A DNA stretch of 43,377 nucleotides from a virus: positions 1 through 43,377 of the IMG/VR virus record IMGVR_UViG_3300026075_000018, one strand, 5' to 3'. Within the stretch, counting starts at the first letter, position 1; each line of letters starts with the position of its first letter. Positions 22,646 to 39,586 of the stretch are shown piece by piece. The notes beneath the pieces were generated by a model, which saw only the letters and a program-made list of their open reading frames with translations, had not been told where the DNA came from and did no database searches. Made by a program: the position numbers and the translations under genes.

Positions 22646-22677
22646 TCGCGGACTAAACATCTCCTATAATGAGACCC
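22646..22677 (+). promoter_or_regulatory. Promoter-like element P1
   Basis: TCGCG at 22646-22650, exactly 14 bases, TATAAT at 22665-22670, then GAGACCC. It drives the cassette at 22694. Member of a 13-copy family with invariant spacing. Confidence 0.85.
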
Positions 22678-22693
22678 TAACAAAGGAGAACGT

Positions 22694-22975
22694 ATGTTCA
22701 GAAAGCCCAAACCACCAAGCAAGTTGGAGTTGGCCATTGACGCACTACTCGATCGCGTCGCGACGGAAGAATACGACTCCGAAGAGACACCCAAGATCGT
22801 CGACCAGGTAACCAAGCTCATCAAGCTGAAGGAGACTAGCACTCCCAAGCGGCCGAGCCCTGACACCTGGATCCTCGTGGCTGGGAACCTCATCGGAATC
22901 GTGATCATCATCGGACACGAACGAGCAAACGTCATAACCAGCAAAGCACTCGGCTTTGTGATGAGGCTGAAGTAG
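22694..22975 (+). CDS. Small membrane protein, first promoter cassette
   Basis: A 93-residue protein with its own promoter (P1) and terminator. Residues 1-58 are charged (KLELAIDALLDRVATEEY, IVDQVTKLIKLKE) and should be helical and cytoplasmic. Residues about 60-75 form a membrane helix (WILVAGNLIGIVIIIG). AAAGGAG sits 7 bases before the ATG, and the 5' untranslated region should be only about 20 bases. No family recognised. Like its cassette neighbours, it may act early on the host envelope, an inference from size and arrangement only. Confidence 0.75.
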   Translation: MFRKPKPPSKLELAIDALLDRVATEEYDSEETPKIVDQVTKLIKLKETSTPKRPSPDTWILVAGNLIGIVIIIGHERANVITSKALGFVMRLK

Positions 22976-23007
22976 CAGACTTTCCAGTTGTTACGGACGA
23001 GATGAAA

Positions 23008-23045
23008 GGGTGTGTAGCTGACAACTACATGCCCTCTCGTTTTTG
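23008..23045 (+). terminator. Terminator of the first cassette
   Basis: GGGTGTGTAG pairs with CTACATGCCC (10 pairs, two G-T), followed by CTCG and TTTTTG. It ends the transcript of the gene at 22694 and lies 3 bases before promoter P2. Confidence 0.8.
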
Positions 23046-23047
23046 AT

Positions 23048-23079
23048 TCGCGAAGTTTTCAAACCCTATAACGAGACCC
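23048..23079 (+). promoter_or_regulatory. Promoter-like element P2
   Basis: TCGCG at 23048-23052, 14 bases, TATAAC at 23067-23072, then GAGACCC. It drives the gene at 23098. Confidence 0.85.
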
Positions 23080-23097
23080 TTAGAGAAAGGAAGATCA

Positions 23098-23283
23098 ATG
23101 CTTCAGGTAAACGCCGTCATCACCGACGAACAGAACAATCAAGTACTCGTAAACGTTACGGGAACCGAAGAAGTCGAGATCATCGTCACCAAAGCTGAAA
23201 GGCAGCAGAAGATGACCTTGACTTGGGCGGAAGCCGCAGCACTGCGAGGACTGTTGGACTTCGCCGAGGATAACTGCATCTAA
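23098..23283 (+). CDS. Small cassette protein A
   Basis: A 61-residue soluble protein with an N-terminal beta part (LQVNAVITDEQNNQVLVNV) and a helical end (WAEAAALRGLLDFAEDN). It resembles the protein encoded at 23390: both have a strand-rich first half followed by a xE(A/I)AxLRxLL helix, so they are probably ancient paralogs. AGAAAGGAAGATC precedes the ATG. It lies between P2 and its own terminator, as a one-gene transcript. Function unknown. Confidence 0.75.
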   Translation: MLQVNAVITDEQNNQVLVNVTGTEEVEIIVTKAERQQKMTLTWAEAAALRGLLDFAEDNCI

Positions 23284-23313
23284 CTGAATCGTATCGACCC
23301 TCTAGAGCTCAAG

Positions 23314-23342
23314 ACCAGAGTCCCTACAAGGACTTTGGTTTT
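23314..23342 (+). terminator. Terminator of cassette A
   Basis: ACCAGAGTCC pairs with GGACTTTGGT over 10 positions (one G-T pair), loop CTACAA, then TTTT. The T run merges into the TTTTCGCA of promoter P3. Confidence 0.85.
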
Positions 23343-23372
23343 CGCAAAACTTTCAGGGCATATAATGAACCC
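23342..23372 (+). promoter_or_regulatory. Promoter-like element P3
   Basis: TCGCA at 23342-23346, 14 bases, TATAAT at 23361-23366, then GAACCC. It begins inside the T run of the preceding terminator and serves the gene at 23390. Confidence 0.85.
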
Positions 23373-23389
23373 TACAGAAAGGAAGACCC

Positions 23390-23587
23390 ATGATTCTGAT
23401 TCGACGCGACTTCATTAACGAAGCCGGAGAAGAAGTCTCGATTGAAGTTATCGAAGATGTGAAAGGTGTAACGATTGCTCGTACCAGGCCGGAAGGCCAG
23501 ACGGAAACGTTGTACTATCCAACTGAGATAGCTGTCTTGAGAGAACTTCTCGGACTTCTTACGCCCGCGTTCAAGACGAAAGGTTAA
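23390..23587 (+). CDS. Small cassette protein B
   Basis: A 65-residue protein, similar in layout to cassette protein A: strands in MILIRRDFINEAGEEVSIEV and GVTIARTRPE, then a helix TEIAVLRELLGLLTP. A basic tail ends it. GAAAGGAAGACCC precedes the ATG. It is bracketed by P3 and a hairpin terminator. No known family recognised; the paired cassettes suggest duplication followed by divergence. Confidence 0.75.
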   Translation: MILIRRDFINEAGEEVSIEVIEDVKGVTIARTRPEGQTETLYYPTEIAVLRELLGLLTPAFKTKG

Positions 23588-23604
23588 TCCCGACTTGGTT
23601 CAAA

Positions 23605-23635
23605 ACCAGACTCCCCTGACAAGGAGTTTGGTTTT
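23605..23635 (+). terminator. Terminator of cassette B
   Basis: ACCAGACTCC pairs with GGAGTTTGGT (10 pairs, one G-T), loop CCTGACAA, followed by TTTTCG. Nearly the same stem as the terminator at 23314. Confidence 0.85.
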
Positions 23636-23675
23636 CGTTTTCCAAAAATCCCCCGGGTGGAATTTTCAGAAAAGG

Positions 23676-23707
23676 TCGCAGAATTTACATGGGCCCTAAT
23701 GAGACCC
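23676..23707 (+). promoter_or_regulatory. Promoter-like element P4
   Basis: TCGCA at 23676-23680, 14 bases, CCTAAT at 23695-23700, then GAGACCC. The -10 part is degenerate but the spacing and downstream GAGACCC are kept. It drives the gene at 23728. Confidence 0.75.
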
Positions 23708-23727
23708 CCCTACTGAAGGAGAACCCC

Positions 23728-23895
23728 ATGAAGAAGATTGACGATGCACTCGCCAAGGCCACTTCTGACGGAACCATCAACGGTAAGGCACTCGCTGTCA
23801 AGCTCGGCTTGATGGCGGCTGCTACCGCTGCTGGTGTCGTCGGAACTGTACTTGTCCAGCGCACCCTCGATCGGAAAGCGTCGGACTCTGAATAG
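23728..23895 (+). CDS. Small membrane cassette protein
   Basis: A 55-residue protein: a charged N-terminal helix (KKIDDALAKATSDGTIN), then one membrane helix (LGLMAAATAAGVVGTVLV) and a polar end (DRKASDSE). The ATG at 23728 follows GAAGGAGAACCCC. An in-frame ATG at 23689 falls inside promoter P4 and cannot be used from it. It is followed by a weak hairpin. The resemblance to other cassette membrane proteins in this window is in size and layout, not clear sequence identity. Confidence 0.75.
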   Translation: MKKIDDALAKATSDGTINGKALAVKLGLMAAATAAGVVGTVLVQRTLDRKASDSE

Positions 23896-23905
23896 GAGAA
23901 GCCTG

Positions 23906-23933
23906 AAGCCCCGTTACACGGGCTTTGGGTTTC
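23906..23933 (+). terminator. Weak terminator
   Basis: AAGCCCCGT folds back on ACGGGCTT with one bulged C, followed by TGGGTTTCG. The T run is short, so read-through into the gene at 23956, which has no promoter of its own, is likely. Confidence 0.55.
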
Positions 23934-23955
23934 GTTATGCCCGGAGAGGAGGATT

Positions 23956-24189
23956 ATGGGTTGGTTAGAACTTATCGCAGCTGTCTTGATGAACGTACTT
24001 ATCTTGGCAGTTACGATCTATGTGGTGCTCTATGTTCTAGTACCATTTGCGATGTTATGTGTTGTTGTCGCTAAGTACGATCTCTCTTCTAAGAAGCGAC
24101 AAGAAGAGAAGGAACGCGAGAAGAATGCCGCAAATGGCTACGTAATGACGAATGAGGAGTTGGATCGGATGTATGGTGGCCCTTGGTGA
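23956..24189 (+). CDS. Small membrane protein
   Basis: A 77-residue protein whose first 38 residues are almost entirely hydrophobic (LELIAAVLMNVLILAVTIYV continuing to AMLCVVVA), forming one long or two short membrane helices. The remainder is charged (KKRQEEKEREKN) and ends DRMYGGPW. GGAGAGGAGGATT provides a strong ribosome site. It overlaps the next gene, at 24173, by 17 bases, so the two are co-translated. No family recognised. Confidence 0.7.
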   Translation: MGWLELIAAVLMNVLILAVTIYVVLYVLVPFAMLCVVVAKYDLSSKKRQEEKEREKNAANGYVMTNEELDRMYGGPW

Positions 24190-24958
24190 TCTAATTAAGC
24201 GGCTCGAGAAGCTTGTAGTAGACAATTCGCCAACCATACTCACTGCGATTGGTGTGACTGGTACTCTCACTACAGCATATTTGACCGCACAAGCTACATT
24301 CAAGGCTGCAGAACTTATCTATCTAGAAGAAGTGCGTCGGCTAGAGTTACGTAAACAAGGCGACGAGTCACCGGGTTACCTGCTTCCCAAAGACGCCGTT
24401 AAGCTTGTCTGGAAGTTGTATATCCCTTCAGCAGCTACTGCTGCAATGACGATTGCTTCCATCATCGGGTCAGATCGTATCAGTTCCCGTCGTGCAGCCG
24501 CGGTAGCTGTTGCATATTCCATCACTGAGAAGGCCTTCGCAGAGTATCGCGACAAGGTTGTCGAGAAGATCGGAGAGAAGAAGGAAGAAGCCATTCGCTC
24601 TGAGTTGGCTCAAGCACGTGTCGACAGGGATCCCGTTGGCAACGCCACAGTCATCATCGGAGAAGGACGAGTTCTGTGTTACGAAGAGTTCACCGGGCGT
24701 TTCTTCTACTCTGATATGGAGTCACTCCGGAGGGCTGAGAACGACATCAATGCGCAGGTCATCAACGACTCATATGCAGCACTGTCGGATCTGTATGACC
24801 TGCTCAGCTTGCCCCATACTTCCGAATCAAGCGAGGTCGGATGGAATCTTGACCGACTCCTCAAGCTGGAGTTCTCGCCCCTGATATCGGAAGGTCGTCC
24901 GTGCATATCTGTCGGGTTCTCTGTTAAGCCCATCCGTGGTTTCGCCCGACTCCAGTAA
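24173..24958 (+). CDS. DUF6353-like phage membrane protein, copy 1
   Basis: A 261-residue protein resembling the DUF6353-type phage family. An N-terminal membrane helix (SPTILTAIGVTGTLTTAYLT) is followed by a charged linker and a second hydrophobic stretch (YIPSAATAAMTIASIIG). The conserved block RRAAAVAVAYSITEKAFAEY comes next. The C-terminal half includes FTGRFFYSDMESLRRAENDI and LSDLYDLLSLP. A paralog with the same layout lies at 27291. The start is uncertain: ATG 24173 overlaps the previous gene and has only a modest ribosome site. Function of the family is unknown; it commonly sits near tail and lysis genes. Confidence 0.65.
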   Translation: MVALGDLIKRLEKLVVDNSPTILTAIGVTGTLTTAYLTAQATFKAAELIYLEEVRRLELRKQGDESPGYLLPKDAVKLVWKLYIPSAATAAMTIASIIGSDRISSRRAAAVAVAYSITEKAFAEYRDKVVEKIGEKKEEAIRSELAQARVDRDPVGNATVIIGEGRVLCYEEFTGRFFYSDMESLRRAENDINAQVINDSYAALSDLYDLLSLPHTSESSEVGWNLDRLLKLEFSPLISEGRPCISVGFSVKPIRGFARLQ

Positions 24959-24982
24959 CACCTAATCAAGAAGGAGAACGAA

Positions 24983-25123
24983 ATGAAGTCACTGTTCAAG
25001 GCACTCAAGACCAAGAAGGTCATCATCCCTCTCGTCGCGACTCTCGTCACCACTCTGGTCGTCGTTGGCCTGGGTGTCGCAACCAAGACTCAGCTCGCGG
25101 TGGAGGACGAGACCGAAGACTGA
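24983..25123 (+). CDS. Small membrane protein (46 residues)
   Basis: A 46-residue protein beginning MKSLFKALKTKKVIIPL, with a basic N-terminus, one membrane helix (IIPLVATLVTTLVVVGLGV) and an acidic tail (VEDETED). GAAGGAGAACG lies before the ATG. The charge pattern predicts the C-terminus outside. It could equally be a short lipoprotein-less secreted peptide. Nothing indicates a specific role. Confidence 0.7.
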   Translation: MKSLFKALKTKKVIIPLVATLVTTLVVVGLGVATKTQLAVEDETED

Positions 25124-25163
25124 TCACTACTCATTAATCGAAACGTATACGAAGGGTAAGAGC

Positions 25164-25742
25164 GTGCTCAAGAAGACAATCAAGTACAAGAATCTCGACG
25201 GTGAACCGATCACCGGAGACTTCTACTTCAACATGACCAAAATGGAACTCGCTGAGATGGAGGTTCTCAAGGAGGGTGGCCTTCGTGAGCATCTCGAGCG
25301 AATCATCAAGGAGCAGGATCGTCGTCAGATTCTGATGGCCTTCAAGGATCTCATCGCGGCGACTGTCGGTCGGCGTTCGGAGGATGGTATCCGGTTCGAG
25401 AAGTCCGAGAAGATCACCAATGAGTTCATGCAGACTGACGCCTACTCCGAACTCATCCTCTCGTTCTTCACGGATCCGAAGGCCGCGGTCGAGTTCATCA
25501 GCGGAGTCATGCCGAAGGACCTTGTCGACAAGGTGGACATGACGAAGGTGATGTCACAGCCTATGGTCCTTGAGTCCGGACCGAAGGATGAACCAGGGAA
25601 GAGGGAGCTCGGCGACTACAGCTACGAGGAACTCGAAGCGATGCCCTTCGATGAGTTCTCGGATCTTGTGGGTCGTCAGAAGGGCAACGTCGACAAGGCT
25701 ATCCTCATGCTGGCGATGCGGAGGGCAACTTACCGGAGGTAA
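25164..25742 (+). CDS. Tail-assembly-chaperone-like protein
   Basis: A 192-residue soluble protein. The opening VLKKTIKYKNLDGEPITGDF with FNMTKMELAEMEV, then LREHLERIIKEQDRRQILMA and FKDLIAATVGRRS, and later TDAYSELILSFFTD matches a widespread phage family often labelled tail assembly chaperone or minor structural protein. The C-terminus (about 145-190) is a further helical region with LEAMPFDEFSDLVG. GTG at 25164 is used since CGAAGGGTAAGAGC precedes it; earlier in-frame codons overlap the small gene upstream. Because a better chaperone candidate occurs at 10742, the precise job here is uncertain. Confidence 0.6.
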   Translation: MLKKTIKYKNLDGEPITGDFYFNMTKMELAEMEVLKEGGLREHLERIIKEQDRRQILMAFKDLIAATVGRRSEDGIRFEKSEKITNEFMQTDAYSELILSFFTDPKAAVEFISGVMPKDLVDKVDMTKVMSQPMVLESGPKDEPGKRELGDYSYEELEAMPFDEFSDLVGRQKGNVDKAILMLAMRRATYRR

Positions 25743-25746
25743 GTAG

Positions 25747-25839
25747 ATGATAGTTAAAGTTCTGATCCATTTGTTCTTGACCTGCATAACCGGCGGGTTG
25801 TGGCTTCTGGGTCTCATCATCTGGCGGATGCTTAAGTAG
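25747..25839 (+). CDS. Tiny membrane protein (30 residues)
   Basis: A 30-residue protein starting MIVKVLIHLFLTCITGGLW and ending IIWRMLK. The IHLxLTxxTGGLWLxxLIIW pattern is a common short membrane protein of actinobacteria and their phages. GGAGG lies 7 bases before the ATG, at the very end of the preceding gene, so expression is coupled to it. Confidence 0.65.
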   Translation: MIVKVLIHLFLTCITGGLWLLGLIIWRMLK

Positions 25840-25860
25840 CGCGATGAGGGGGGACCAGCA

Positions 25861-25894
25861 AGACTAGAGGGTACGGGTCTCACCCATCTAGTCT
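25861..25894 (+). other. Strong hairpin without a T run
   Basis: AGACTAGA (25861-25868) pairs perfectly with TCTAGTCT (25887-25894), and inside it GGGT can pair with ACCC. No U-tract follows, so it is not a standard terminator. It sits in a 136-base gap between 25839 and 25976 and may be a processing or stability element. Confidence 0.6.
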
Positions 25895-25975
25895 ATACCG
25901 GATGCTAGGTCTTCAACGACAGCCGAGAGTGCGGTACATGTGCCCGACATCGCGATAACTTATAAGTAGGTAAGG

Positions 25976-26143
25976 ATGTATCTCGATACGGTTTTGGACA
26001 TGGATACAATGCCTATATTCACTGGAACTCCTGATGAGATACGAGAGTGGGTGAGAAGGAAGAAGATTGGTCACGATAGATGGGTCTACATCGAGGATAG
26101 CGGCCAATGTGTAAGTATCAAGGAGTACCTGACTCGCACATAA
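25976..26143 (+). CDS. Small conserved-looking protein (55 residues)
   Basis: A 55-residue protein with the pattern TGTPDEIREWVRRKKIGHDR then WVYIEDSGQCVSIKEYL. This looks like a real small alpha/beta protein: a helix with basic residues followed by strand, Gly-containing turn and a closing helix. GTAGGTAAGG lies before the ATG at 25976. Its last codons contain the TCGCA of promoter P5. Function not recognised. Confidence 0.6.
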   Translation: MYLDTVLDMDTMPIFTGTPDEIREWVRRKKIGHDRWVYIEDSGQCVSIKEYLTRT

Positions 26144-26165
26144 AACATATCCCTTAATGAGACCT
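26134..26165 (+). promoter_or_regulatory. Promoter-like element P5
   Basis: TCGCA at 26134-26138, 14 bases, CTTAAT at 26153-26158, then GAGACCT. It drives the gene at 26189 and overlaps the end of the preceding coding region. Confidence 0.75.
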
Positions 26166-26188
26166 ACTTTAAACAGAAGGAGACCCCC

Positions 26189-26443
26189 ATGACCAAAACG
26201 GAAATCGCGAAAGCGTTGACCTCGTGTGTCGTCGGGTTCGCCACTTCTACTGTTGTCAAGGAGATTGTCAAGAACAACACTGACCCTGAGAAGGTTGCTG
26301 ATAAGGCAGCCGTAATCATCGCCAGTTATGTCCTTGGCGCTATCGCCGCTGATGCCAGTAAGGATTGGACGGACACGAAGATCGACGAGCTCGTCGCCAA
26401 GTGGAGGAAGTTGACGTCGAAGGACGAACTAACCACTGTCTAG
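26189..26443 (+). CDS. Small cassette protein with hydrophobic segments
   Basis: An 84-residue protein. Two mildly hydrophobic stretches, ALTSCVVGFATSTVVKEIV and KAAVIIASYVLGAIAADA, are separated by a polar DPEKVADK; the end (IDELVAKWRKLTSKDEL) is a charged helix. It could lie on or in the membrane. AGAAGGAGACCCCC precedes the ATG. It is framed by P5 and a hairpin terminator as a single-gene transcript. No known family recognised. Confidence 0.7.
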   Translation: MTKTEIAKALTSCVVGFATSTVVKEIVKNNTDPEKVADKAAVIIASYVLGAIAADASKDWTDTKIDELVAKWRKLTSKDELTTV

Positions 26444-26452
26444 ATCTCGAAG

Positions 26453-26480
26453 CCTGAGCCCCCACAAGGGCTCTGGTTTT
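26453..26480 (+). terminator. Terminator of the 26189 cassette
   Basis: CCTGAGCCC pairs with GGGCTCTGG (one T-T mismatch), loop CCACAA, followed by TTTTCGCATGG. The same stem-loop core (GAGCCC...GGGCTC) recurs at 37433. Here no -10 element follows the TCGCA, so transcription of 26500 may depend on read-through. Confidence 0.75.
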
Positions 26481-26499
26481 CGCATGGAAAGAAGGATTC

Positions 26500-27144
26500 G
26501 TGGACGAAAGAGAGTTTCCAAGCAACAAGCGTCCCCAAGTTCGGCCGGCTAAGGCGAAAGAGACCGTTGAGAAGGTCGTCACGGGCAAGGTAGTCACTCG
26601 GCGCAAGCCTTTGACCCGCCGGTTCGCGGAGACATTCATCGCGGAAGACTCTCAGAGCGTTGGGCGCTATATTCTTCTCGAAGTACTGATTCCCGCGGCT
26701 AAGGATCTCATCTCCGACATGGTTTCACAAGCTGTGGATCGTACTCTGTTCGGCGGAGGACGGAGTGGACGAGGACGTCCGGGATATCGCCCAAGTGGTT
26801 CAACCAGTCACGTGAGTTACAACCGATACGCTTCGTCGACAACAGGTCCGCCGTGGCGTCGTGAAGAGGAACGTCCAGGCATCAGTCGATCGGCACGTCG
26901 TAACCATGACTTCGATGAAATCGTGTTGGCTACCCGCGCAGAAGCCAATGAGGTCATTGATCGGTTGTTCGACCTGATTTCGAAGTACGAGCAAGCCACT
27001 GTGTCCGATCTCTATGACCTTGTAGGGCTCGAGGCGAAGTTTACTGATGAGAAGTGGGGATGGCGTGATATGCGTGGCGTCCAAGCAGTTCGAGTGGGCG
27101 GCGGATATCTGCTGGATCTACCCAAACCGGAACAGCTCGACTAA
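26500..27144 (+). CDS. Conserved phage protein, basic N-terminus
   Basis: A 214-residue protein. Residues 1-90 are basic and helical (KRPQVRPAKAKETVEKVV, ISDMVSQAVDRTLFG), then comes a Gly/Arg/Ser-rich linker (about 85-125). The last 80 residues, EIVLATRAEANEVIDRLFDL, ISKYEQATVSDLYDLVG, KWGWRDMRGVQAVRVGGGY and LLDLPKPE, form a module found in many phages of Gram-positive bacteria, whose role is unknown to me. GTG at 26500 is used because GAAGGATTC lies just ahead. It is followed by three genes that look like a co-conserved set up to 29457. A virion or membrane-associated role is possible. Confidence 0.65.
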   Translation: MDEREFPSNKRPQVRPAKAKETVEKVVTGKVVTRRKPLTRRFAETFIAEDSQSVGRYILLEVLIPAAKDLISDMVSQAVDRTLFGGGRSGRGRPGYRPSGSTSHVSYNRYASSTTGPPWRREEERPGISRSARRNHDFDEIVLATRAEANEVIDRLFDLISKYEQATVSDLYDLVGLEAKFTDEKWGWRDMRGVQAVRVGGGYLLDLPKPEQLD

Positions 27145-27153
27145 GGCCATGCC

Positions 27154-27291
27154 ATGGCTACGATGTCGGAGCGTGAGCTTCTGAAGAAAGCATATCCTTA
27201 CCCCACATGGTGGGCAAAAGTCAACAAGATGTCCGACGCCCAGGTACATGCAATCTTCATACAAATGAGACTGAAAGGAAAGGTTGCGTAA
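27154..27291 (+). CDS. Small conserved phage protein (45 residues)
   Basis: A 45-residue protein: SERELLKKAYPYPTWWAKV, then KMSDAQVHAIFIQMRLKGKV. The AYP-P-WxxKVxKMSDxQVxAI pattern is a common short phage protein, usually found beside its neighbours here. No strong ribosome site is visible before the ATG at 27154. Its stop shares a base with the next start (TAATG), indicating coupling with the gene at 27291. Confidence 0.65.
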   Translation: MATMSERELLKKAYPYPTWWAKVNKMSDAQVHAIFIQMRLKGKVA

Positions 27292-28181: not shown

Positions 28182-28192
28182 GAGCTGAGATC

Positions 28193-28927: not shown

Positions 28928-28929
28928 CA

Positions 28930-29457: not shown

Positions 29458-29471
29458 CGGGAGGAGGGTAG

Positions 29472-33532: not shown

Positions 33533-33547
33533 CATCTGGAGGTTATA

Positions 33548-34250: not shown

Positions 34251-34758
34251 GCACATTACTTTCGACGACGCCCGACTTCTCTTCAAGAACTTCGCCGGCA
34301 AGGAGACGAAGTTCAACCGTGAGGGTGATCGCAACTTCTGTGTGGTCATCCCGAAAGACGACATCGTCGAGCAGCTCCTCGAGGACGGATGGAACGTCAA
34401 GACTCTGGCTCCTCGTGAAGAGGGCGACGATCCACTTCACTACATGAAGGTCTCGGTGAGCTACAAGGGGCGGCCGCCGAAGATCGTCATCATCACTTCC
34501 CGTGGCCGGACCGACATCGATCAGGATCTCGTGTCCATGCTGGACTTCGCGGACATGGCGAAGGTCGATCTGATCGTTCGTCCTTACCACTGGACCGTCA
34601 AGGGTGACAGTGGCGTGTCTGCTTACCTCAAGACCATGTTCGTCACCATTCGTGAGGACGAGCTCGAACTGCGTTACGCCGACGTCCCAGAGATCGCCTA
34701 CCCGAGGACATTGGCCATCGAGTCTGGCAACTTCGTTGACGGGGAGGTCATCGACTGA
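34237..34758 (+). CDS. Putative ssDNA-binding protein
   Basis: A 173-residue protein resembling single-stranded DNA-binding proteins of Gram-positive phages. Recognisable segments are ITFDDARLLFKNFAGKETKF, REGDRNFCVVIPKDDI, LEDGWNVKTLAPREEGDD, HYMKVSVSYKGRPPKIVIIT, LDFADMAKVDLIVRPYHW and SGVSAYLKTMFVTI. A compact beta-rich fold like an OB domain is likely. Codon use is C-rich, unlike its neighbours, which fits a protein needed in many copies. It would cover the unwound strands produced by the fused replicase encoded at 29472. GAAGAAGG precedes the ATG. It lacks a long acidic tail, although the end (VDGEVID) is acidic. Confidence 0.7.
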   Translation: MANGEHITFDDARLLFKNFAGKETKFNREGDRNFCVVIPKDDIVEQLLEDGWNVKTLAPREEGDDPLHYMKVSVSYKGRPPKIVIITSRGRTDIDQDLVSMLDFADMAKVDLIVRPYHWTVKGDSGVSAYLKTMFVTIREDELELRYADVPEIAYPRTLAIESGNFVDGEVID

Positions 34759-34964
34759 TGCGGGGTTGGATACATCTTTACAGCGGTATTAACGTGATGC
34801 CGAGCTTCCCTGTCCTGATCTCTACTTGCGGTCATCCCATCGTTCCACGCAAGGGCGATGCCGTATTCGATGGAGAACGTCGATACATAGTCGACGATGT
34901 GGTTTGGGATCTAGTAGCTCAAACCGTAACTGTTAGTGCTCAGGCAGAAAGGATGAATGAGTGA
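34758..34964 (+). CDS. Small protein of the replication operon
   Basis: A 68-residue protein with a beta-barrel-like pattern: HLYSGINVMPSFPVLI, CGHPIVPRKGDAVFDGERRY, IVDDVVWDLVAQTVTVSAQA. The KGDxVxxxxxxYxVxxVxWDL layout resembles small SH3-like or translation-associated barrels, but no family is certain. It overlaps its neighbours at both ends (TGATG upstream, GTGA downstream), a clear sign of coupling. Confidence 0.6.
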   Translation: MRGWIHLYSGINVMPSFPVLISTCGHPIVPRKGDAVFDGERRYIVDDVVWDLVAQTVTVSAQAERMNE

Positions 34965-35167
34965 ACAAACTGTGGTTCATATATCCCTTGCGGATGCTTC
35001 GTCTCGTTCAGGGGTATTGTCCACTTTGCAACTCATCTCCGCCAGATAAACGTTGCCCGGTGTGTAATGGTTCTTACATCTACGGAGCCGGGATGAGTGA
35101 GTTCAGACGTGCTACATGGTTACGGAGATTCGAAGAATGGCACCGAGGAGGTAAAACTGATGGTTAA
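34961..35167 (+). CDS. Small zinc-ribbon protein
   Basis: A 68-residue protein with CPLCNSSPPDKRCPVCNG (about 20-37): two CxxC pairs separated by 9 residues, a zinc ribbon. The N-terminus is basic and hydrophobic and the C-terminus is a basic helix (SEFRRATWLRRFEEWHRGG). It may contact nucleic acid or a replication partner. The GTG at 34961 overlaps the preceding stop (GTGA). Confidence 0.65.
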   Translation: MNKLWFIYPLRMLRLVQGYCPLCNSSPPDKRCPVCNGSYIYGAGMSEFRRATWLRRFEEWHRGGKTDG

Positions 35168-35324
35168 CTGGGCGTGGGTCATCACGTCCGGCCTTTTGTG
35201 TGGGACAGTTGGACTGACACTCGGGTTCTTCGTTTCCATGCACTTCGTCGGCAAGGTGGTCAGAGAAGCTAACGCCGTGAAAGCCAAGAACACCACCACA
35301 ACTATCCAGAAAGCAGAGAGATGA
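35160..35324 (+). CDS. Small membrane protein (54 residues)
   Basis: A 54-residue protein beginning MVNWAWVITSGLLCGTVGL, with one membrane helix (about 4-30) and a polar helical tail (KVVREANAVKAKNTTTTIQK). GAGGAGGTAAAACTG precedes the ATG at 35160, inside the end of the zinc-ribbon gene. It overlaps the following gene by 4 bases (ATGA). Unknown function. Confidence 0.65.
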   Translation: MVNWAWVITSGLLCGTVGLTLGFFVSMHFVGKVVREANAVKAKNTTTTIQKAER

Positions 35325-35611
35325 GCCTCAACATCCAGCGCTACACTCATGTGCCCTTGTATGTGGAAGCCGTTCAGGTGACAGCTGACAACATGGCCAA
35401 AGTCGCTGAGTGGGTCGGCGGAACTATCCAGATGGATTCCGAGAACCAGCAGTACATCAAGATCGCCACCATCCGGCCTCTGCGCGATCGTCAGACGCAA
35501 GCCTATGTCGGCGACTGGGCCCTGAAGACTGACGTCGGCCTGAAGGTGTACACGAACAAGGCCTTCGGTCGAGGGTTCATGGCTGCTCCCCTGGAGTCTG
35601 CGAAGGTATAA
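35321..35611 (+). CDS. Small conserved phage protein (96 residues)
   Basis: A 96-residue protein with the recurring phage pattern YTHVPLYVEAVQVTADNMAK, VAEWVGG, YIKIATIRPLRDRQTQAYVG and DWALKTDVGLKVYTNKAFGR. Similar short proteins are widespread in phages of actinobacteria and Firmicutes, and their role is unknown. It closes the replication operon: a hairpin terminator begins 13 bases after its stop. Confidence 0.7.
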   Translation: MSLNIQRYTHVPLYVEAVQVTADNMAKVAEWVGGTIQMDSENQQYIKIATIRPLRDRQTQAYVGDWALKTDVGLKVYTNKAFGRGFMAAPLESAKV

Positions 35612-35623
35612 CTCTTGAAGGTT

Positions 35624-35649
35624 AGGTAGAGAAACGGGGCTCTACCTTT
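35624..35649 (+). terminator. Terminator of the replication operon
   Basis: AGGTAGAG (35624-35631) pairs perfectly with CTCTACCT (35640-35647) around AAACGGGG, followed by TTCC. The T run is short but placed correctly. Confidence 0.65.
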
Positions 35650-35675
35650 CCTTGAGGAGTTAGGAGGTGAGAACG

Positions 35676-35690
35676 ATGAAGGGGCGCTAA
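35676..35690 (+). CDS. Possible four-residue leader ORF (MKGR)
   Basis: ATG AAG GGG CGC TAA lies 5 bases after TAGGAGGTGAGAA, an excellent ribosome site, and between two hairpins (35624 and 35701). A ribosome on this mini-ORF would lie next to the GGCG...CGCC fold that starts within it. It resembles a leader peptide of an attenuator but could be accidental. Confidence 0.25.
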   Translation: MKGR

Positions 35691-35700
35691 AGACGCCGTT

Positions 35701-35732
35701 AGGTAGGGGAACTCCACGGGCCCCTACCTTCT
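35701..35732 (+). terminator. Terminator-like hairpin before the tRNA-like gene
   Basis: AGGTAGGGG (35701-35709) pairs perfectly with CCCCTACCT (35721-35729), 9 pairs, loop of 11, then TCTT. The stem is very stable and the T run weak. It may be a terminator or the 5' boundary of the tRNA-like RNA. Confidence 0.6.
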
Positions 35733-35733
35733 T

Positions 35734-35818
35734 GGGGTGGTGGCCTATTGGCAAGGGCACGGTCGTGGCCACGTAAAGAAGATCAACCGAGAACTGGGTT
35801 CGATTCCCAGCCACCCCG
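35734..35818 (+). tRNA. tRNA-like gene with atypical anticodon arm
   Basis: The acceptor stem GGGGTGG (35734-35740) pairs with CCACCCC (35811-35817). A D-arm GCCT/GGGC closes a loop containing GG. The T-arm CTGGG-TTCGATT-CCCAG is canonical. The 35 bases in between do not form a normal five-pair anticodon stem with a seven-base loop: CGGT can pair with ACCG only around a 22-base loop, which itself holds the palindrome CGTGGCCACG. I therefore cannot assign an amino acid. It could be a tRNA with an insertion, a decayed tRNA or a tRNA-like structure. No CCA is encoded. A promoter-like element (P6) follows 2 bases later. Confidence 0.5.
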
Positions 35819-35820
35819 CT

Positions 35821-35852
35821 TCGCAAACTAAACATTCCCTATAATGACCGAT
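35821..35852 (+). promoter_or_regulatory. Promoter-like element P6
   Basis: TCGCA at 35821-35825, 14 bases, TATAAT at 35840-35845, then GACCGA instead of GAGACCC. No sizeable gene follows, only a candidate small RNA. Confidence 0.8.
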
Positions 35853-35982
35853 GGACCCATGCTATTGTAATCACCAAACCATCCTTAATGCTGTCGAGTA
35901 ACACAGATCGCAGGATGGTGCGGCAAGATCTTAGCGTCCGAGTCCCGGAAGATGAGATGGACGTGCATGCCATCTCATTTTG
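35851..35982 (+). ncRNA. Candidate small RNA 1
   Basis: A transcript of about 130 bases is predicted between P6 and a clean terminator. Inside, CCATCCT (35880-35886 region) can pair with AGGATGG about 27 bases later, giving an internal hairpin, and the 3' end is the ATGAGATGG/CCATCTCAT hairpin with TTTTG. No gene with a ribosome site is present. One tiny ORF of 16 codons (35851-35901, starting MDPCYCNHQT) begins exactly at the expected start of transcription and could be translated as a leaderless message, which is common in actinobacteria. Function unknown. Confidence 0.55.
35952..35982 (+). terminator. Terminator of candidate small RNA 1
   Basis: ATGAGATGG (35952-35960) pairs perfectly with CCATCTCAT (35970-35978), followed by TTTG. 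It lies 4 bases before the TCGCA of P7. Confidence 0.75.
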
Positions 35983-35986
35983 CTCC

Positions 35987-36017
35987 TCGCAGGTTCTACA
36001 TGTTGCATAATGAGGTA
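35987..36017 (+). promoter_or_regulatory. Promoter-like element P7
   Basis: TCGCA at 35987-35991, 14 bases, CATAAT at 36006-36011, then GAGGTA. It drives candidate small RNA 2. Confidence 0.75.
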
Positions 36018-36106
36018 AACCTCGAAGGAAGCAGAAGACTGTGACCTAACGAGAGAGCCTCGAAAGGGTAAGACTCCGTATGTAAGCTGCGGAGTCTTAC
36101 TCTTTA
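36018..36106 (+). ncRNA. Candidate small RNA 2
   Basis: About 89 bases lie between P7 and a perfect 11-pair terminator. The predicted RNA starts in or near GAGGTAAACCTC, itself a small hairpin, and the centre repeats CCTCGAA twice (CCTCGAAGGAAG and CCTCGAAAGGG). No ORF with a start, a ribosome site and more than three codons is present. It is the clearest stand-alone small RNA in the window. A regulatory or antisense function is possible; no target was identified. Confidence 0.65.
36068..36106 (+). terminator. Terminator of candidate small RNA 2
   Basis: GTAAGACTCCG (36068-36078) pairs perfectly with CGGAGTCTTAC (36090-36100), 11 pairs with an 11-base loop, followed by TCTTTAT. Confidence 0.85.
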
Positions 36107-36131
36107 TCTTTGCAAACCCTATCGTTTTTAG

Positions 36132-36163
36132 TCGCATTCTAACCATACTGTCTAATGAGACCC
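36132..36163 (+). promoter_or_regulatory. Promoter-like element P8
   Basis: TCGCA at 36132-36136, 14 bases, TCTAAT at 36151-36156, then GAGACCC. It drives the gene at 36183. Confidence 0.85.
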
Positions 36164-36182
36164 TACTACACAAGGAGATTGA

Positions 36183-36374
36183 GTGATTACCAAAGAAACT
36201 GCGAAGAAGATTGCTTTGGGCGCTACTGTCGGATTTGTTGTCGGAGCCACAGTTACCATCATCGCTACTGATAAACTGAGCTTCGTCCTCAAAGAAGCCA
36301 AGTGGACCCCGCAAGGCGATATGCTTCTGTACTTCTATGGTCGTAAACACCACATGATCATCCCCAAACCGTAG
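36183..36374 (+). CDS. Small membrane cassette protein (63 residues)
   Basis: A 63-residue protein with a basic N-terminus (TKETAKKIALG), one membrane helix (ATVGFVVGATVTIIAT) and a folded-looking polar end (GDMLLYFYGRKHHMIIPKP). GTG at 36183 follows AAGGAGATTGA. It is a one-gene transcript between P8 and a hairpin terminator. The C-terminal domain suggests it does more than span the membrane. No family recognised. Confidence 0.7.
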   Translation: MITKETAKKIALGATVGFVVGATVTIIATDKLSFVLKEAKWTPQGDMLLYFYGRKHHMIIPKP

Positions 36375-36383
36375 AGTCAATAG

Positions 36384-36412
36384 CCGAAACCCCTTCAACA
36401 AGGGTTTTGGTT
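36384..36412 (+). terminator. Terminator of the 36183 cassette
   Basis: CCGAAACCCCTT folds on AAGGGTTTTGG (11 pairs with one bulged C and one G-T), loop CAAC, followed by TTATCGCA, so it abuts P9. Confidence 0.75.
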
Positions 36413-36413
36413 A

Positions 36414-36445
36414 TCGCAAACTATACGCATCCTTTAATGAAACCC
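36414..36445 (+). promoter_or_regulatory. Promoter-like element P9
   Basis: TCGCA at 36414-36418, 14 bases, TTTAAT at 36433-36438, then GAAACCC. It drives the gene at 36463. Confidence 0.8.
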
Positions 36446-36462
36446 CAATGAAAGGAGCCATC

Positions 36463-36594
36463 ATGGATAAGGCATGGTACATGGCACTAGCTACAAACGG
36501 AAACGTCGTCTTCCTGCTGATAGCAGTAGCCGTGGCCACACCCACATTCATCGTGCGCCGAGTAATCAGGAGGTTCAATCCCGACAAGGACTAA
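36463..36594 (+). CDS. Small membrane cassette protein (43 residues)
   Basis: A 43-residue protein beginning MDKAWYMALATNGNVVFLL with a central membrane helix (NVVFLLIAVAVATPTFIV) and a strongly basic end (RRVIRRFNPDKD), predicting the C-terminus inside the cell. GAAAGGAGCC lies 5 bases before the ATG. One-gene transcript from P9. Function unknown. Confidence 0.7.
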   Translation: MDKAWYMALATNGNVVFLLIAVAVATPTFIVRRVIRRFNPDKD

Positions 36595-36600
36595 TGTAGA

Positions 36601-36635
36601 AGAATAGACTGCTCGTAACTGACGGTCTATTCTTT
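36601..36635 (+). terminator. Terminator of the 36463 cassette
   Basis: AGAATAGAC (36601-36609) pairs perfectly with GTCTATTCT (36625-36633), followed by TTCGCA; the U-tract runs directly into P10. Confidence 0.8.
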
Positions 36636-36666
36636 CGCAAAAGTTACAAAGGCTCTAATGAGACCC
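36635..36666 (+). promoter_or_regulatory. Promoter-like element P10
   Basis: TCGCA at 36635-36639, 14 bases, TCTAAT at 36654-36659, then GAGACCC. It drives the gene at 36689. Confidence 0.85.
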
Positions 36667-36688
36667 CCATCTACCGAAAGGAAGAGCT

Positions 36689-36955
36689 ATGTCGACCGAA
36701 GGAATCGTCGTCGGCGCCATTGTTGGCGTTGCCGTTGGAGCTTTCTCAGCCGTCGTTGCTAATGGTGCAATCCGTGAACTACTCGATAAGTCCCACAAGG
36801 AAGAACTCGAGGAGACTCGGCACGCAGCATTCAACGAAGGTTGGGGAGCCGCCAGCACTAACGCGAACAATGTCCGACAGTCCTACGTTCGTCTGTTCCC
36901 CGAACCGGAAGAGTCAAAGGGTACAACCCTCAAAGCTGGCCGCAAGGCTGCCTAG
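36689..36955 (+). CDS. Membrane cassette protein (88 residues)
   Basis: An 88-residue protein with an N-terminal membrane helix (GIVVGAIVGVAVGAFSAVVA) followed by a helix rich in Glu, Lys and His (RELLDKSHKEELEETRHAAF), a small-residue region (GWGAASTNANN) and a basic end. CCGAAAGGAAGAGCT precedes the ATG. One-gene transcript between P10 and a strong terminator. No family recognised. Confidence 0.7.
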   Translation: MSTEGIVVGAIVGVAVGAFSAVVANGAIRELLDKSHKEELEETRHAAFNEGWGAASTNANNVRQSYVRLFPEPEESKGTTLKAGRKAA

Positions 36956-36959
36956 AAGG

Positions 36960-36993
36960 CTCTAGGGCCCCTTAAACAAGGGCTCTAGAGTTT
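36960..36993 (+). terminator. Terminator of the 36689 cassette
   Basis: CTCTAGGGCCC (36960-36970) pairs with GGGCTCTAGAG (36980-36990), 11 pairs with one G-T, followed by TTT of the TTTCGCA that begins P11. Confidence 0.85.
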
Positions 36994-37024
36994 CGCAGAA
37001 CCCCCACGTCCTCTAATGAGACCC
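36993..37024 (+). promoter_or_regulatory. Promoter-like element P11
   Basis: TCGCA at 36993-36997, 14 bases, TCTAAT at 37012-37017, then GAGACCC. It drives the gene at 37043. Confidence 0.85.
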
Positions 37025-37042
37025 CCTAAAGAAGGAGAAGCT

Positions 37043-37225
37043 ATGCTAAGTGTGGACGAGATGAAGAGCATCTTGGACAGTCTTTACAAGAAGCAAGCGG
37101 ACCGACTTGTCGCGTCGAATGAGCCACTGGAACAGTTTCTCAATCGACCTGATGAGGCGGCCGTGACCTTCGAGATCGATTGTTACGAAGCCCTAATCGA
37201 AGACGCAGCAAAAGCCCGATCCTGA
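37043..37225 (+). CDS. Small acidic cassette protein (60 residues)
   Basis: A 60-residue, largely helical acidic protein: LSVDEMKSILDSLYKKQADR, then EPLEQFLNRPDEAAVTFEID and CYEALIEDAAKARS. Unlike most cassette products it has no membrane helix. The ATG at 37043 follows AAGAAGGAGAAGCT; the frame extends up to 37016 but that overlaps P11. Bracketed by P11 and its own terminator. Function unknown. Confidence 0.7.
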   Translation: MLSVDEMKSILDSLYKKQADRLVASNEPLEQFLNRPDEAAVTFEIDCYEALIEDAAKARS

Positions 37226-37233
37226 AAGGAGTC

Positions 37234-37265
37234 ACCAGGGCCCCCTAGACAAGGGCTCTGGTTTT
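37234..37265 (+). terminator. Terminator of the 37043 cassette
   Basis: ACCAGGGCCC pairs with GGGCTCTGGT (10 pairs, one G-T), loop CCTAGACAA, then TTTTAG. Confidence 0.85.
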
Positions 37266-37269
37266 AGTT

Positions 37270-37300
37270 TCGCATGGAAAGCACGCCCTATAATGAATAC
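37270..37300 (+). promoter_or_regulatory. Promoter-like element P12
   Basis: TCGCA at 37270-37274, 14 bases, TATAAT at 37289-37294, then GAATAC. It drives the gene at 37320. Confidence 0.8.
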
Positions 37301-37319
37301 TAACGAAGGGACACTCACC

Positions 37320-37427
37320 ATGTCTGATCAAGTACTACAACACGCCCATGTTATCGGCCTAGTTATCTTAGGCGGAATTGGTGGTGCATGTATCGTTCTA
37401 CTGTTCAGGAAATTTGGACCACGTTAG
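37320..37427 (+). CDS. Tiny membrane cassette protein (35 residues)
   Basis: A 35-residue protein: MSDQVLQHAHVIGLVILGG with a membrane helix (VIGLVILGGIGGACIVLLF) and a basic end (RKFGPR). The Gly-rich helix (GGxGG) suggests helix packing or oligomerisation in the membrane. GAAGGGACACTCACC precedes the ATG. One-gene transcript between P12 and a terminator. Confidence 0.65.
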   Translation: MSDQVLQHAHVIGLVILGGIGGACIVLLFRKFGPR

Positions 37428-37432
37428 TAAGG

Positions 37433-37463
37433 CCCGAGCCCCTTAAACAAGGGCTCTGGTTTT
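37433..37463 (+). terminator. Terminator of the 37320 cassette
   Basis: CCCGAGCCC pairs with GGGCTCTGG apart from one internal mismatch, loop CTTAAACAA, followed by TTTTC. No promoter element follows. Confidence 0.8.
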
Positions 37464-37480
37464 CTTGGAAGGAGAGAGAG

Positions 37481-37693
37481 TTGACCATTGAAGATTCGCC
37501 TCGTTGGGAGCGGTATTGTGTGGACTCGGGTCGGCCGGTATACATGGTAGGCGGAGACAGATGTATGAAACATGGGGACCAGTCCACTCCTTGTTTCACG
37601 TCTATCCGCATCGCAAAGTGCACACACCCAAATTTTTCACCAAATCATCCAACACCGCACTGTGCTGAGTGTGGACGAGAATTGGAGGAATGA
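37481..37693 (+). CDS. Small Cys/His protein, possible zinc binder
   Basis: A 70-residue protein with Cys and His suited to metal binding: CVDSGRPVYMVGGDRCMKHG in the first half and CTHPNFSPNHPTPHCAECGR near the end. TTG at 37481 is chosen since GGAAGGAGAGAGAG lies just before it; the open frame continues left into the preceding terminator. No promoter of its own is seen, so it may be expressed by read-through. Function unknown. Confidence 0.55.
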   Translation: MTIEDSPRWERYCVDSGRPVYMVGGDRCMKHGDQSTPCFTSIRIAKCTHPNFSPNHPTPHCAECGRELEE

Positions 37694-37856
37694 TGACCCC
37701 GATCTACGACCAGCTGCTATGGGAGTACGTCGATCGAGAGGACACCACCTTTGAAACGTATCATGGTACCACTGAAACGAAGAATGTGCTTCCTGGACTA
37801 TGCACAAGGACTGAGATACGCCATACGATCTCGATTCGACAAAAGGAGGTCGCATC
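37693..37856 (+). other. Uncertain ORF or frameshift region ahead of the helicase
   Basis: An ATG at 37693 (or 37690) follows GGAGGAATG and reads MTPIYDQLLWEYVDREDTT, a plausible start of a small protein. The frame then runs 442 bases into the helicase gene with unlikely composition. A second frame, from a TTG at 37751, contains LDYAQGLRYAIRSRFDKRR, also protein-like. A +1 shift would join the two. Either a short gene overlaps the helicase start, or the gene is broken or misread. I cannot choose. Confidence 0.3.
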
Positions 37857-39155
37857 TTGCTCCAGACATATCTCTATCCCCATCAGCAAGACGCCCTTAC
37901 CAGACTTGGAAACGGCAAGATCCTCTGGGGAGGGGTCGGCACCGGTAAGTCCCGAGTCGCCGCGGCCTACTACATCCAGAAAGAAGCCCCCCGCCAAGTC
38001 ATCGTCATCACGACGGCCAAGAAGCGAGACTCCCTCGAGTGGGAAGGGGAGTTCGTCAAGTACGGGGTCGGCAAGACGGAAGAAGCCACCACCCAAGGCG
38101 TTCTCACAGTCGACTCCTGGAACAACATCGCCAAGTACCAGAACCTCTACGGAGCCTTCTTCATCTTCGACGAGCAGCGACTTGTCGGCTCCGGCAAATG
38201 GGTCAAGTCGTTCATCAGGATCTCTCGGCGTAACCATTGGATCCTACTTAGCGCTACTCCTGGTGACACGTGGCTTGATTACATACCGGTCTTCATAGCC
38301 AACGGGTTCTTCGACAACCAGACCCACTTCAAGCGTGAGCATGTGATCTACAAGACGTACAGCAAGTTTCCCAAGGTTGACCGGTATGTTGGCCTTGGGA
38401 AGCTGCTGCGTTTGAGGAACAGTATCTTGGTAGAGATGCCCTATCTTAGACAGACGGTCAGGCATTGTAAGGACGTGATCGTCGACTATGATCAAGAACT
38501 ATACAATAGGGTGGTGAAACGTAAGTGGCACGTCTATGCGAATCGACCACTGAAGAACGTTCCGGAACTATTCCTTGTGATGAGGAAGGTTGTAAACTCC
38601 GACTCCTCGCGGGTTGGCTGGGTACGTCAGTTGCTCAACAAGCATTCGAGACTCATTGTGTTCTACAACTTCGACTACGAGCTGGACTTGCTGAGGAGCC
38701 TGGCATCTCAGTTGAGCCCCTCGGAGAACCACAAGACTACCGAGTTGTTAGTTCCTTCGAACTTGAGCGATACAAAACCGATCATGAACCTGAGTTCCCC
38801 GAGCGACGAGATCTTACAGAAGAAATCGAATGGTATAAAGATCGACGTCGCCGAATGGAACGGCCACAAACACGAACCGATCCCCCGGAATGATTGCTGG
38901 CTTTACTTAGTGCAGTATTCGGCTGGGGCAGAGGGGTGGAACTGCGTCACTACTAATGCGATGTGCTTCTACTCCTTGCCCTATTCATACAAGCTTTGGC
39001 ATCAAGCACATGGTCGAATTGATCGATTGAATACCCCTTACATCGACTTGTATTACTACTCTCTTCTAACAAACTCGGACATCGATCGGGCTATCAAGCG
39101 ATCTCTCGATGCTAAGAAGAGCTTCAATGAATCTGTATATCGTAGGGCAAGATAG
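37857..39155 (+). CDS. SF2 (SNF2/DEAD-like) helicase
   Basis: A 432-residue DNA or RNA helicase. Motifs in order: YPHQQDAL (7-14), Walker A GGVGTGKS (25-32), motif II FDEQ (104-107; Q replaces the usual H or D), motif III LSATPGDTW (131-139), and near the end motif VI QAHGRIDR (383-390). This is close to the small SNF2-like helicases that sit beside primase-polymerase genes in Gram-positive phages. It probably remodels DNA during replication. TTG at 37857 follows AAAAGGAGGTCGCATC at a good distance. The repeats at 39164-39287 begin 9 bases after the stop. Confidence 0.85.
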   Translation: MLQTYLYPHQQDALTRLGNGKILWGGVGTGKSRVAAAYYIQKEAPRQVIVITTAKKRDSLEWEGEFVKYGVGKTEEATTQGVLTVDSWNNIAKYQNLYGAFFIFDEQRLVGSGKWVKSFIRISRRNHWILLSATPGDTWLDYIPVFIANGFFDNQTHFKREHVIYKTYSKFPKVDRYVGLGKLLRLRNSILVEMPYLRQTVRHCKDVIVDYDQELYNRVVKRKWHVYANRPLKNVPELFLVMRKVVNSDSSRVGWVRQLLNKHSRLIVFYNFDYELDLLRSLASQLSPSENHKTTELLVPSNLSDTKPIMNLSSPSDEILQKKSNGIKIDVAEWNGHKHEPIPRNDCWLYLVQYSAGAEGWNCVTTNAMCFYSLPYSYKLWHQAHGRIDRLNTPYIDLYYYSLLTNSDIDRAIKRSLDAKKSFNESVYRRAR

Positions 39156-39163
39156 TGCAATAC

Positions 39164-39287
39164 AGGACATAGGAGTGACGAAAGGGTATGAACTAGGACA
39201 TAGGAGTGACGAAAGGGTATGAACTAGGACATAGGAGTGACGAAAGGGTATGAACTAGGACATAGGAGTGACGAAAGGGTATGAACT
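39164..39287 (+). repeat. Four perfect tandem 31-bp repeats
   Basis: Four identical head-to-tail copies begin at 39164, 39195, 39226 and 39257. Each starts AGGACATAGGAGTGACGAAA and ends GGGTATGAACT. There are no spacers, so it is not a CRISPR array. The array is in a 430-base gene-free stretch next to replication genes and an A/T-rich inverted repeat, so iterons of a replication origin are a reasonable reading. Perfect identity implies recent expansion or strong selection. Confidence 0.95.
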
Positions 39288-39335
39288 AGGGTGAAACGAC
39301 ACTGTTTTGAGTGGATTTTGGCCTTGGGAGGATAA

Positions 39336-39470
39336 GAATCTGCCAAAAACCAAGAATTCTTGCCAAAAACTTTTCTATAATGTTATATACTCTACGCGCG
39401 CGAGTAAAGGTAGTAGTAAGTAACATATAAAAAGTTTTTTTCTGCAAAATTTTTGGTTTTTGGCAGAATC
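39336..39470 (+). repeat. Inverted repeat around an A/T-rich core
   Basis: GAATCTGCCAAAAACCAAGA (39336 on, 23 bases in all) is an inverted match, with two differences, to the 23 bases ending GGTTTTTGGCAGAATC at 39470. TGCCAAAAAC also occurs a second time at 39361. The core is A/T-rich, includes TATAATGTTATATAC and CATATAAAAAG, and contains an unusual CTACGCGCGCGAG step. AAACGACAC occurs on both outer flanks (about 39292 and 39475). Together these look like an origin or a protein-binding control region. Confidence 0.85.
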
Positions 39471-39505
39471 GGACAAAACGACACCCGCACAAGTTCTAGA
39501 CGATG

Positions 39506-39536
39506 TCGCGTAAAAAACGTGGACTATAATAGAAGG
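39506..39536 (+). promoter_or_regulatory. Promoter-like element P13
   Basis: TCGCG at 39506-39510, 14 bases, TATAAT at 39525-39530, then AGAAGGG rather than GAGACCC. It is the only member of the family ahead of a multi-gene operon (39587-43341), which includes the RNA polymerase candidate. Confidence 0.75.
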
Positions 39537-39586
39537 GAGTAGATCAAGCAAATTGCATACCCTCTTAATTTCGGCAGGAGTACATC

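Follow-up and report, generated by a model that had tools for sequence, protein, structure and literature searches.

The window analyzed here is the whole of the IMG/VR virus record IMGVR_UViG_3300026075_000018 (43,377 bases), and the entire record was searched for a promoter-like element, TCGC(A/G)-N14-nnTAA(T/C), in which an upstream box and a −10-like hexamer are separated by exactly 14 bases. Thirteen copies were found, every one on the + strand. All of them are located to the right of the tail and holin genes, and a scan of the structural half of the window (1-22645) gave no copies. In 300 first-order Markov resamplings scanned with the same pattern, the mean count was 0.53 and the maximum was 4; the strict TATAAT form occurs five times in the window versus 0.06 expected. 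When a purine was required after TAAT, a gap of 14 bases gave 12 matches and a gap of 24 gave one, with no other gap represented on the sense strand, and the reverse strand gave a single match, at a gap of 8. An earlier sequence-only reading of this DNA had listed the 13 coordinates with a 14-base gap in each, and all of these are right. It had also described the hexamer as a fixed TATAAT, mostly continuing into GAGACCC. The form nnTAA(T/C) is indeed present in all 13 copies, but exact TATAAT is found in only five (22646, 23342, 35821, 37270 and 39506), the remaining eight having TATAAC, CCTAAT, CTTAAT, CATAAT, TCTAAT (three copies) and TTTAAT. Because the hexamer varies among the copies, A at −11 is present in only 7 of the 13 sites; T at −7 is present in 12. 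The statement about GAGACCC was too strong, since the exact heptamer follows 6 of the 13 hexamers and a form with one base changed follows 2 more. A third conserved block, ACA, is located 5 bases upstream of the hexamer.

For 10 of the 13 elements, a Shine-Dalgarno sequence and the start codon of a small open reading frame (ORF) lie within about 60 bases downstream. The elements at 22646-22677 (TCGCG-N14-TATAAT-GAGACCC; matrix score, 40.2 bits), 23048-23079 (TCGCG-N14-TATAAC-GAGACCC) and 23342-23373 (TCGCA-N14-TATAAT-GAACCCT) stand upstream of 22694-22975, 23098-23283 and 23390-23587, respectively. That at 23676-23707 (TCGCA-N14-CCTAAT-GAGACCC) precedes a small ORF inside 23689-23895, and that at 26134-26165 (TCGCA-N14-CTTAAT-GAGACCT) precedes 26189-26443. 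Further to the right, the elements at 36132-36163 and 36635-36666 (both TCGCA-N14-TCTAAT-GAGACCC) are upstream of 36183-36374 and 36689-36955, respectively, and small genes follow those at 36414-36445 (TCGCA-N14-TTTAAT-GAAACCC), 36993-37024 (TCGCA-N14-TCTAAT-GAGACCC; the gene starts just past the element) and 37270-37301 (TCGCA-N14-TATAAT-GAATACT). Several elements lie directly 3' of terminator-like hairpins, among them a terminator at 23007-23035 ahead of the second element and one at 36391-36404 ahead of the element at 36414, giving an arrangement of promoter-gene-terminator units. A further terminator-like hairpin followed by TGGTTTTCGC was located at 26456-26473 on the + strand, and the same layout was seen at 23007, 23910, 36391 and 37440. 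The last element, at 39506-39537 (TCGCG-N14-TATAAT-AGAAGGG), is a distinct variant (TATAATAGAAGGGAGTAGA) and heads an operon for a VRR-Nuc-like nuclease, an exonuclease and an RNA polymerase.

Two elements head units without a clear ORF. The element at 35821-35852 (TCGCA-N14-TATAAT-GACCGAT) is followed by about 140 nucleotides that have no ORF and end in a strong hairpin, and that at 35987-36018 (TCGCA-N14-CATAAT-GAGGTAA) by about 100 nucleotides that have no clear ORF and end in a hairpin with a T tract. The units at 35846-35985 and 36012-36115 fold far better than shuffled sequences (z = −3.3 and −6.6, respectively) and are candidate small non-coding RNAs. Scans of the window for tRNAs and Rfam families gave no matches. 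A tRNA-like element with a 7-base-pair acceptor-type stem and a TTCGATTC loop was noticed at 35736-35818; it was not called by ARAGORN and is possibly a degenerate or unusual tRNA.

In the operon headed by the element at 39506, the first gene (39587-39898, + strand) encodes the VRR-Nuc-like nuclease and the second (39849-40409, + strand; phrog_3953) a Cas4/RecB-type exonuclease. They are followed by the gene at 40406-43081 (+ strand), whose 891-amino-acid product matched phrog_4291 with an E value of 0 and is the proposed reader of the elements. Relatives of this 40406 protein were found in about 250 phage records, including phages of Arthrobacter, Gordonia, Streptomyces, Lactococcus, Curtobacterium, Rhodococcus, Microbacterium and Faecalibacterium. 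The catalytic DxDxD motif is present as GADFDGD at residues 510-516 (DFDGD, 512-516), and this stretch, like the longer SGADFDGD, is invariant in 49 aligned homologues. Comparison at the level of fold was required because phmmer and profile searches of the PDB sequences with the 40406 protein gave no meaningful match. An AlphaFold2 model built from the 49 homologues (pLDDT, 81.2; pTM, 0.67) matched QDE-1 with a Foldseek E value of 2.9e-9 and a VIA Z score of 17.0 over 376 residues at 4.4 A, and this match covers the catalytic core (residues 224-729; Z, 16-17), the Z score of 17 spanning residues 227-729. The Z scores against P23-45 gp64 and P74 gp62 were 12.6 and 12.9, respectively. On the basis of the DFDGD motif and these fold matches, the 40406 protein is assigned, by its predicted structure, as a single-chain two-barrel RNA polymerase.

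The 40406 protein carries N-terminal and C-terminal helix-turn-helix (HTH) regions. Its N-terminal HTH-like segments comprise a Pfam HTH_38 match at residues 79-105 and the model helices at 93-100 and 104-110, which place an HTH at 93-110. QDE-1 and the eukaryotic RNA-dependent RNA polymerases, which give the best structural match to the catalytic core, differ in that QDE-1 is an RNA-silencing enzyme without promoters, whereas the phage core has the added HTH regions. In most of the approximately 250 sequenced phages with a 40406-type protein, the annotation reads HTH protein, hypothetical protein or "RNA-dependent RNA polymerase"; the similarity to QDE-1-type enzymes is the probable source of the last of these. 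An 82-amino-acid small conserved protein (43093-43341, + strand; phrog_4303) is encoded 3' of the polymerase in 13 of the 13 relatives compared. It was rejected as a promoter reader, having no family match and no visible HTH, and is a possible accessory factor.

A search matrix was made from the window sites and those of Rhodococcus phage ReqiPepy6. It found forward-strand sites in phages of Streptomyces, Gordonia, Arthrobacter, Microbacterium and Curtobacterium and in oral phages; in the Lactococcus phages the sites were altered. No reverse-strand site in the relatives scanned exceeded the threshold. With Rhodococcus, the element is therefore present in phages of at least seven host genera belonging to two phyla. 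The per-genome consensus sequences have TCGC(A/G)-n6-ACA-n5-hexamer-GA in common, and three blocks can be recognized: TCGC(A/G) at −31, ACA at −20, and TATA(A/G)T with GAGACC. We infer from these positions that the block centers are near −29, −19 and −9.5, that is, about one helical turn apart. In 11 annotated relatives, a gap of 14 bases accounted for 55 sites and any other gap for at most 3, and the reverse strand had no peak. When the hexamer was left unconstrained, A at −11 was found in 74% and T at −7 in 80% of the sites of the relatives; the consensus hexamer of a gut clade is TTTTAT. Some copies of the element precede tRNAs or non-coding units rather than ORFs. Among the 2.9 million viral contigs of IMG/VR, the motif with a gap of 14 was found in at least 119 stretches, with no matches at a gap of 13 and none at a gap of 15 with a slightly stricter pattern. 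In 257 gigabases of bacterial genomes the motif is nearly absent, only two small metagenome-bin contigs matching. The rigid spacing noted in the window extends to its relatives.

A search of the literature with the motif letters returned unrelated papers only, and the motif is not described in the genome papers of the Arthrobacter AM/AU, Gordonia and Microbacterium phages; the ReqiPepy6 paper was outside this search, and a prior description there is possible. In most relatives a site of the variant form is located about 900 nucleotides (860-950) upstream of the polymerase gene. The polymerase-operon promoter (39506-39545 in the window and the equivalent spot in most relatives) has its own conserved leader, TATAATAGAAGG(A/G)GTAGAAT, and CGCAG often replaces ACA at such promoters. 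They form a distinct subclass, perhaps with different timing.

The motif and the polymerase occur together. In IMG/VR, all 18 near-complete genomes picked by the polymerase have the motif on one strand, and the reversed control gave 0. Conversely, the polymerase is encoded in 32 of the 39 records picked by the motif. Each of the seven others is below 39 kb in length, and among the motif-picked records of at least 39 kb the polymerase is encoded in 28 of 28.

The letters of the motif differ between phages of one host. Lactococcus phages P078 and P162 have the fixed version TTTTA-n-TTTTACATACCCTATAATGAAAGG (TTTTA...ACATACCCTATAATGAAAGG), and phages 1706 and CHPC971 have nCRCA-n-TTTTACATACACTATAGTAGAAAG (nCRCA...ACATACACTATAGTAGAAAG), each version being constant over about a dozen sites. 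Because the two groups of L. lactis phages each keep their own fixed version, the specificity tracks the phage and not the host. The upstream box was compared with the polymerase using sites that had been collected without anchoring on that box. In all actinophages yielding sites, the box is TCGC(A/G) and the recognition helix of the N-terminal HTH of the polymerase is xESxVR. Phage 1706 has a box close to CRCA and the helix SESSVRNW, and P078 and P162 have the box TTTTA and the helix SPGSVTNY. The otherwise near-invariant recognition helix also changes where TCGC becomes TTTT. This joint change is suggestive of the polymerase as the reader. In addition, the polymerase alone resembles a transcription protein among the genes common to all 13 relatives, and Pfam scans of the non-structural ORFs of the window gave no match to MotA, AsiA, sigma factors or WhiB, although a divergent activator could escape such scans.

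Taken together, the 13 elements probably represent a single phage-specific class of promoters, and their reader is probably the RNA polymerase that the phage itself encodes (40406-43081). The suggestion of a dedicated reader made in the sequence-only reading is supported by the rigid design across at least seven host genera, the phage-specific versions, the near absence from bacterial genomes and the co-occurrence with the 40406 polymerase family. Among the candidates it had offered (an activator, a modified host polymerase or the phage polymerase), the phage polymerase fits best, given its predicted fold and the joint change of HTH and box. Tandem HTH domains in the N-terminal extension of the polymerase would stand in for a sigma factor, touching TCGC(A/G) (about −31) and ACA (about −20). 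The polymerase would melt the TATA(A/G)T block, which lies another turn downstream, and start RNA on the purines right after the hexamer (GAGA, GAAA or AGAA). Spacing of the three blocks at about 10 base pairs on one face of the DNA would account for the rigidity of the 14-base gap. The promoters would drive short, often single-gene, terminator-closed units for small non-structural genes and the two candidate small RNAs, and the variant at 39506 would drive the polymerase's own operon.

Several observations weigh against this assignment. The motif and the polymerase occur together in one phage lineage, and shared descent alone could link them; the same phages also have a DNA polymerase, a helicase and other genes in common. 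The joint change of HTH and box amounts to about one evolutionary event plus one intermediate, for which reason the argument drawn from it is suggestive in strength. The hexamer of most relatives is also a reasonable bacterial −10 sequence (TATAAT, with A at −11 at the frequency given above) and would suit a sigma factor as well. Oengus-type phages encode the polymerase yet have few sites. In the 70.6-kb human gut scaffold MT835485, at least 18 sites of a variant motif (TCGCG...ACAT..CCTTTATGA) were found and no polymerase was detected. As a possible case of the motif without the polymerase, this scaffold was searched further; the adjacent exonuclease and VRR-Nuc genes were likewise not found, and it may be truncated or may derive from a phage that lost the polymerase. 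Finally, YonO, the best-known relative, transcribes late genes, and a search of the SPbeta yonK-yonN region, which holds the YonO start site, revealed no similar motif.

The fair −10 sequence in most relatives is also the reason why some weight is kept for recognition of the TATAAT-like block by host RNA polymerase carrying its main sigma factor, a phage activator at TCGC/ACA replacing the −35 contact as in the MotA/AsiA system of T4. MotA acts at a box near −30, the position of the box here, and no TTGACA-like −35 hexamer is present 16-18 bases upstream at these sites; nine consensus sigma70 promoters were found in 20001-40000, fewer than in shuffled sequences (16.4), and none of them corresponds to any of the 13 elements. 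T4 middle promoters, which combine the MotA box with a sigma70 −10, thus resemble the elements in having a non-standard box near −30 and a TATAAT-like −10. They differ in that here neither MotA nor AsiA was matched, GAGACC is conserved downstream, A at −11 appears dispensable and a candidate polymerase is encoded. The A at −11 is usually critical for sigma factors, but 6 of the 13 window sites and the gut clade lack it, and GAGACC directly after the hexamer puts pyrimidines where sigma-dependent starts usually fall. With the Pfam scans giving no activator or sigma factor and only the polymerase looking transcriptional among the common genes, an activator working with host polymerase is considered unlikely.

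It is very improbable that the elements are not promoters at all but repeated protein-binding sites of the operator or stoperator kind, or conserved leaders for translation or RNA processing. Actinobacteriophages commonly carry repeated intergenic sites, start-associated sequences (SAS) and stoperators among them (PMC7302621, PMC13313380), and the present elements do lie just upstream of Shine-Dalgarno sequences. However, they are oriented strictly with transcription, contain a TATAAT-like block, are placed right after terminators and in some cases are followed by a tRNA or a non-coding unit in place of an ORF; moreover, conservation is strongest at positions that precede any plausible leader, and the element lacks the symmetry of most operators. 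The SAS is a conserved ribosome-binding site, found with the ESAS in cluster K and EF phages (PMC7302621), and both are likewise conserved ahead of start codons in actinobacteriophages, whereas the element described here is promoter-like and further upstream. Ordinary host promoters that are alike through chance and recent duplication could account for TATAAT-like −10 sequences ahead of small, closely spaced genes. They would hardly produce a rigid three-block pattern in phages that infect other phyla and have polymerases only about 40% identical, nor the absence of gaps 13 and 15 and the near absence from bacterial genomes, and this explanation is regarded as extremely improbable.

Read as promoters of the phage polymerase, the elements can be compared with two systems. 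Thermus phage P23-45 has a virion (gp96) and a non-virion (gp64) two-barrel RNA polymerase and two promoter motifs, and phages without the virion polymerase also lack its motif (PMC10770324). Like P23-45, the present phage is a siphovirus that encodes a DFDGD two-barrel polymerase of its own and has a conserved motif before early genes. It differs in that its 891-amino-acid enzyme is free-standing, with N- and C-terminal HTH regions and no fusion to a tape measure protein, and in that its promoters have three spaced blocks; sequence similarity is undetectable save for the catalytic motif. SPbeta YonO is a single-chain DNA-dependent RNA polymerase that serves the late structural operon, starting upstream of yonK, with its promoter left undefined (PMC5467207). 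The same study left open the identity of the promoter used by a YonO-like polymerase and the ability of the enzyme to recognize it alone (PMC5467207). The 40406 protein resembles YonO in being a phage two-barrel polymerase made of one chain and about 100 kDa in size, but the elements precede non-structural genes, in contrast to the late genes of YonO. The 40406-type protein is now linked to a promoter code that is specific and testable, and its family provides hundreds of natural promoters, together with a candidate DNA-reading domain, for the YonO-like promoter question. The link also suggests a way in which lytic phages of Streptomyces, Gordonia, Arthrobacter, Rhodococcus and Lactococcus begin transcription, and compact orthogonal expression systems for use in high-GC bacteria may come of it.

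Sites precede non-structural genes in both the window and the relatives, and if a phage polymerase is to serve early genes, it has to be either virion-borne or made first from another promoter. The present polymerase may be packaged in the virion so as to act early. In the record of phage 1706, the depositors labeled this protein (orf75) "structural protein" and its neighbors "unknown", which suggests detection in virions, and the N-terminus of the polymerase, HYG..SGRYPWGSG (HYGILRRSGRYPWGSG), resembles the HYG(I/V)RGMKWG motif of DUF7211 (PF23847). By sequence likeness, the HYG motif is possibly a shared capsid-targeting signal. Because of this label and this resemblance, delivery of the polymerase in the virion is plausible, with the chances about evenly balanced. 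We tentatively propose, as a possibility somewhat short of even, a virion-delivered single-chain two-barrel polymerase with a built-in sigma function, whose tandem N-terminal HTHs would read TCGC(A/G)/ACA/TATAAT-GAGACC at one-turn spacing. Its code would be common to phages of Actinomycetota and Bacillota, with lineage-specific letters, and would serve early genes without host sigma factors. The HYG(I/V)RGMKWG motif of DUF7211 is also carried by two proteins encoded near the terminase gene, at 1994-2854 and 5006-5488.

Two other features of the window were noted. DUF6353 paralogues are encoded at 24152-24958 and 27207-28181, and both are kept in 13 of the 13 relatives compared. Between the helicase and the polymerase operon, four head-to-tail copies of a 31-base-pair unit, AGGACATAGGAGTGACGAAAGGGTATGAACT, occupy 39164-39287 and are followed by an AT-rich tract at 39340-39480, and these repeats are candidate replication origin iterons.

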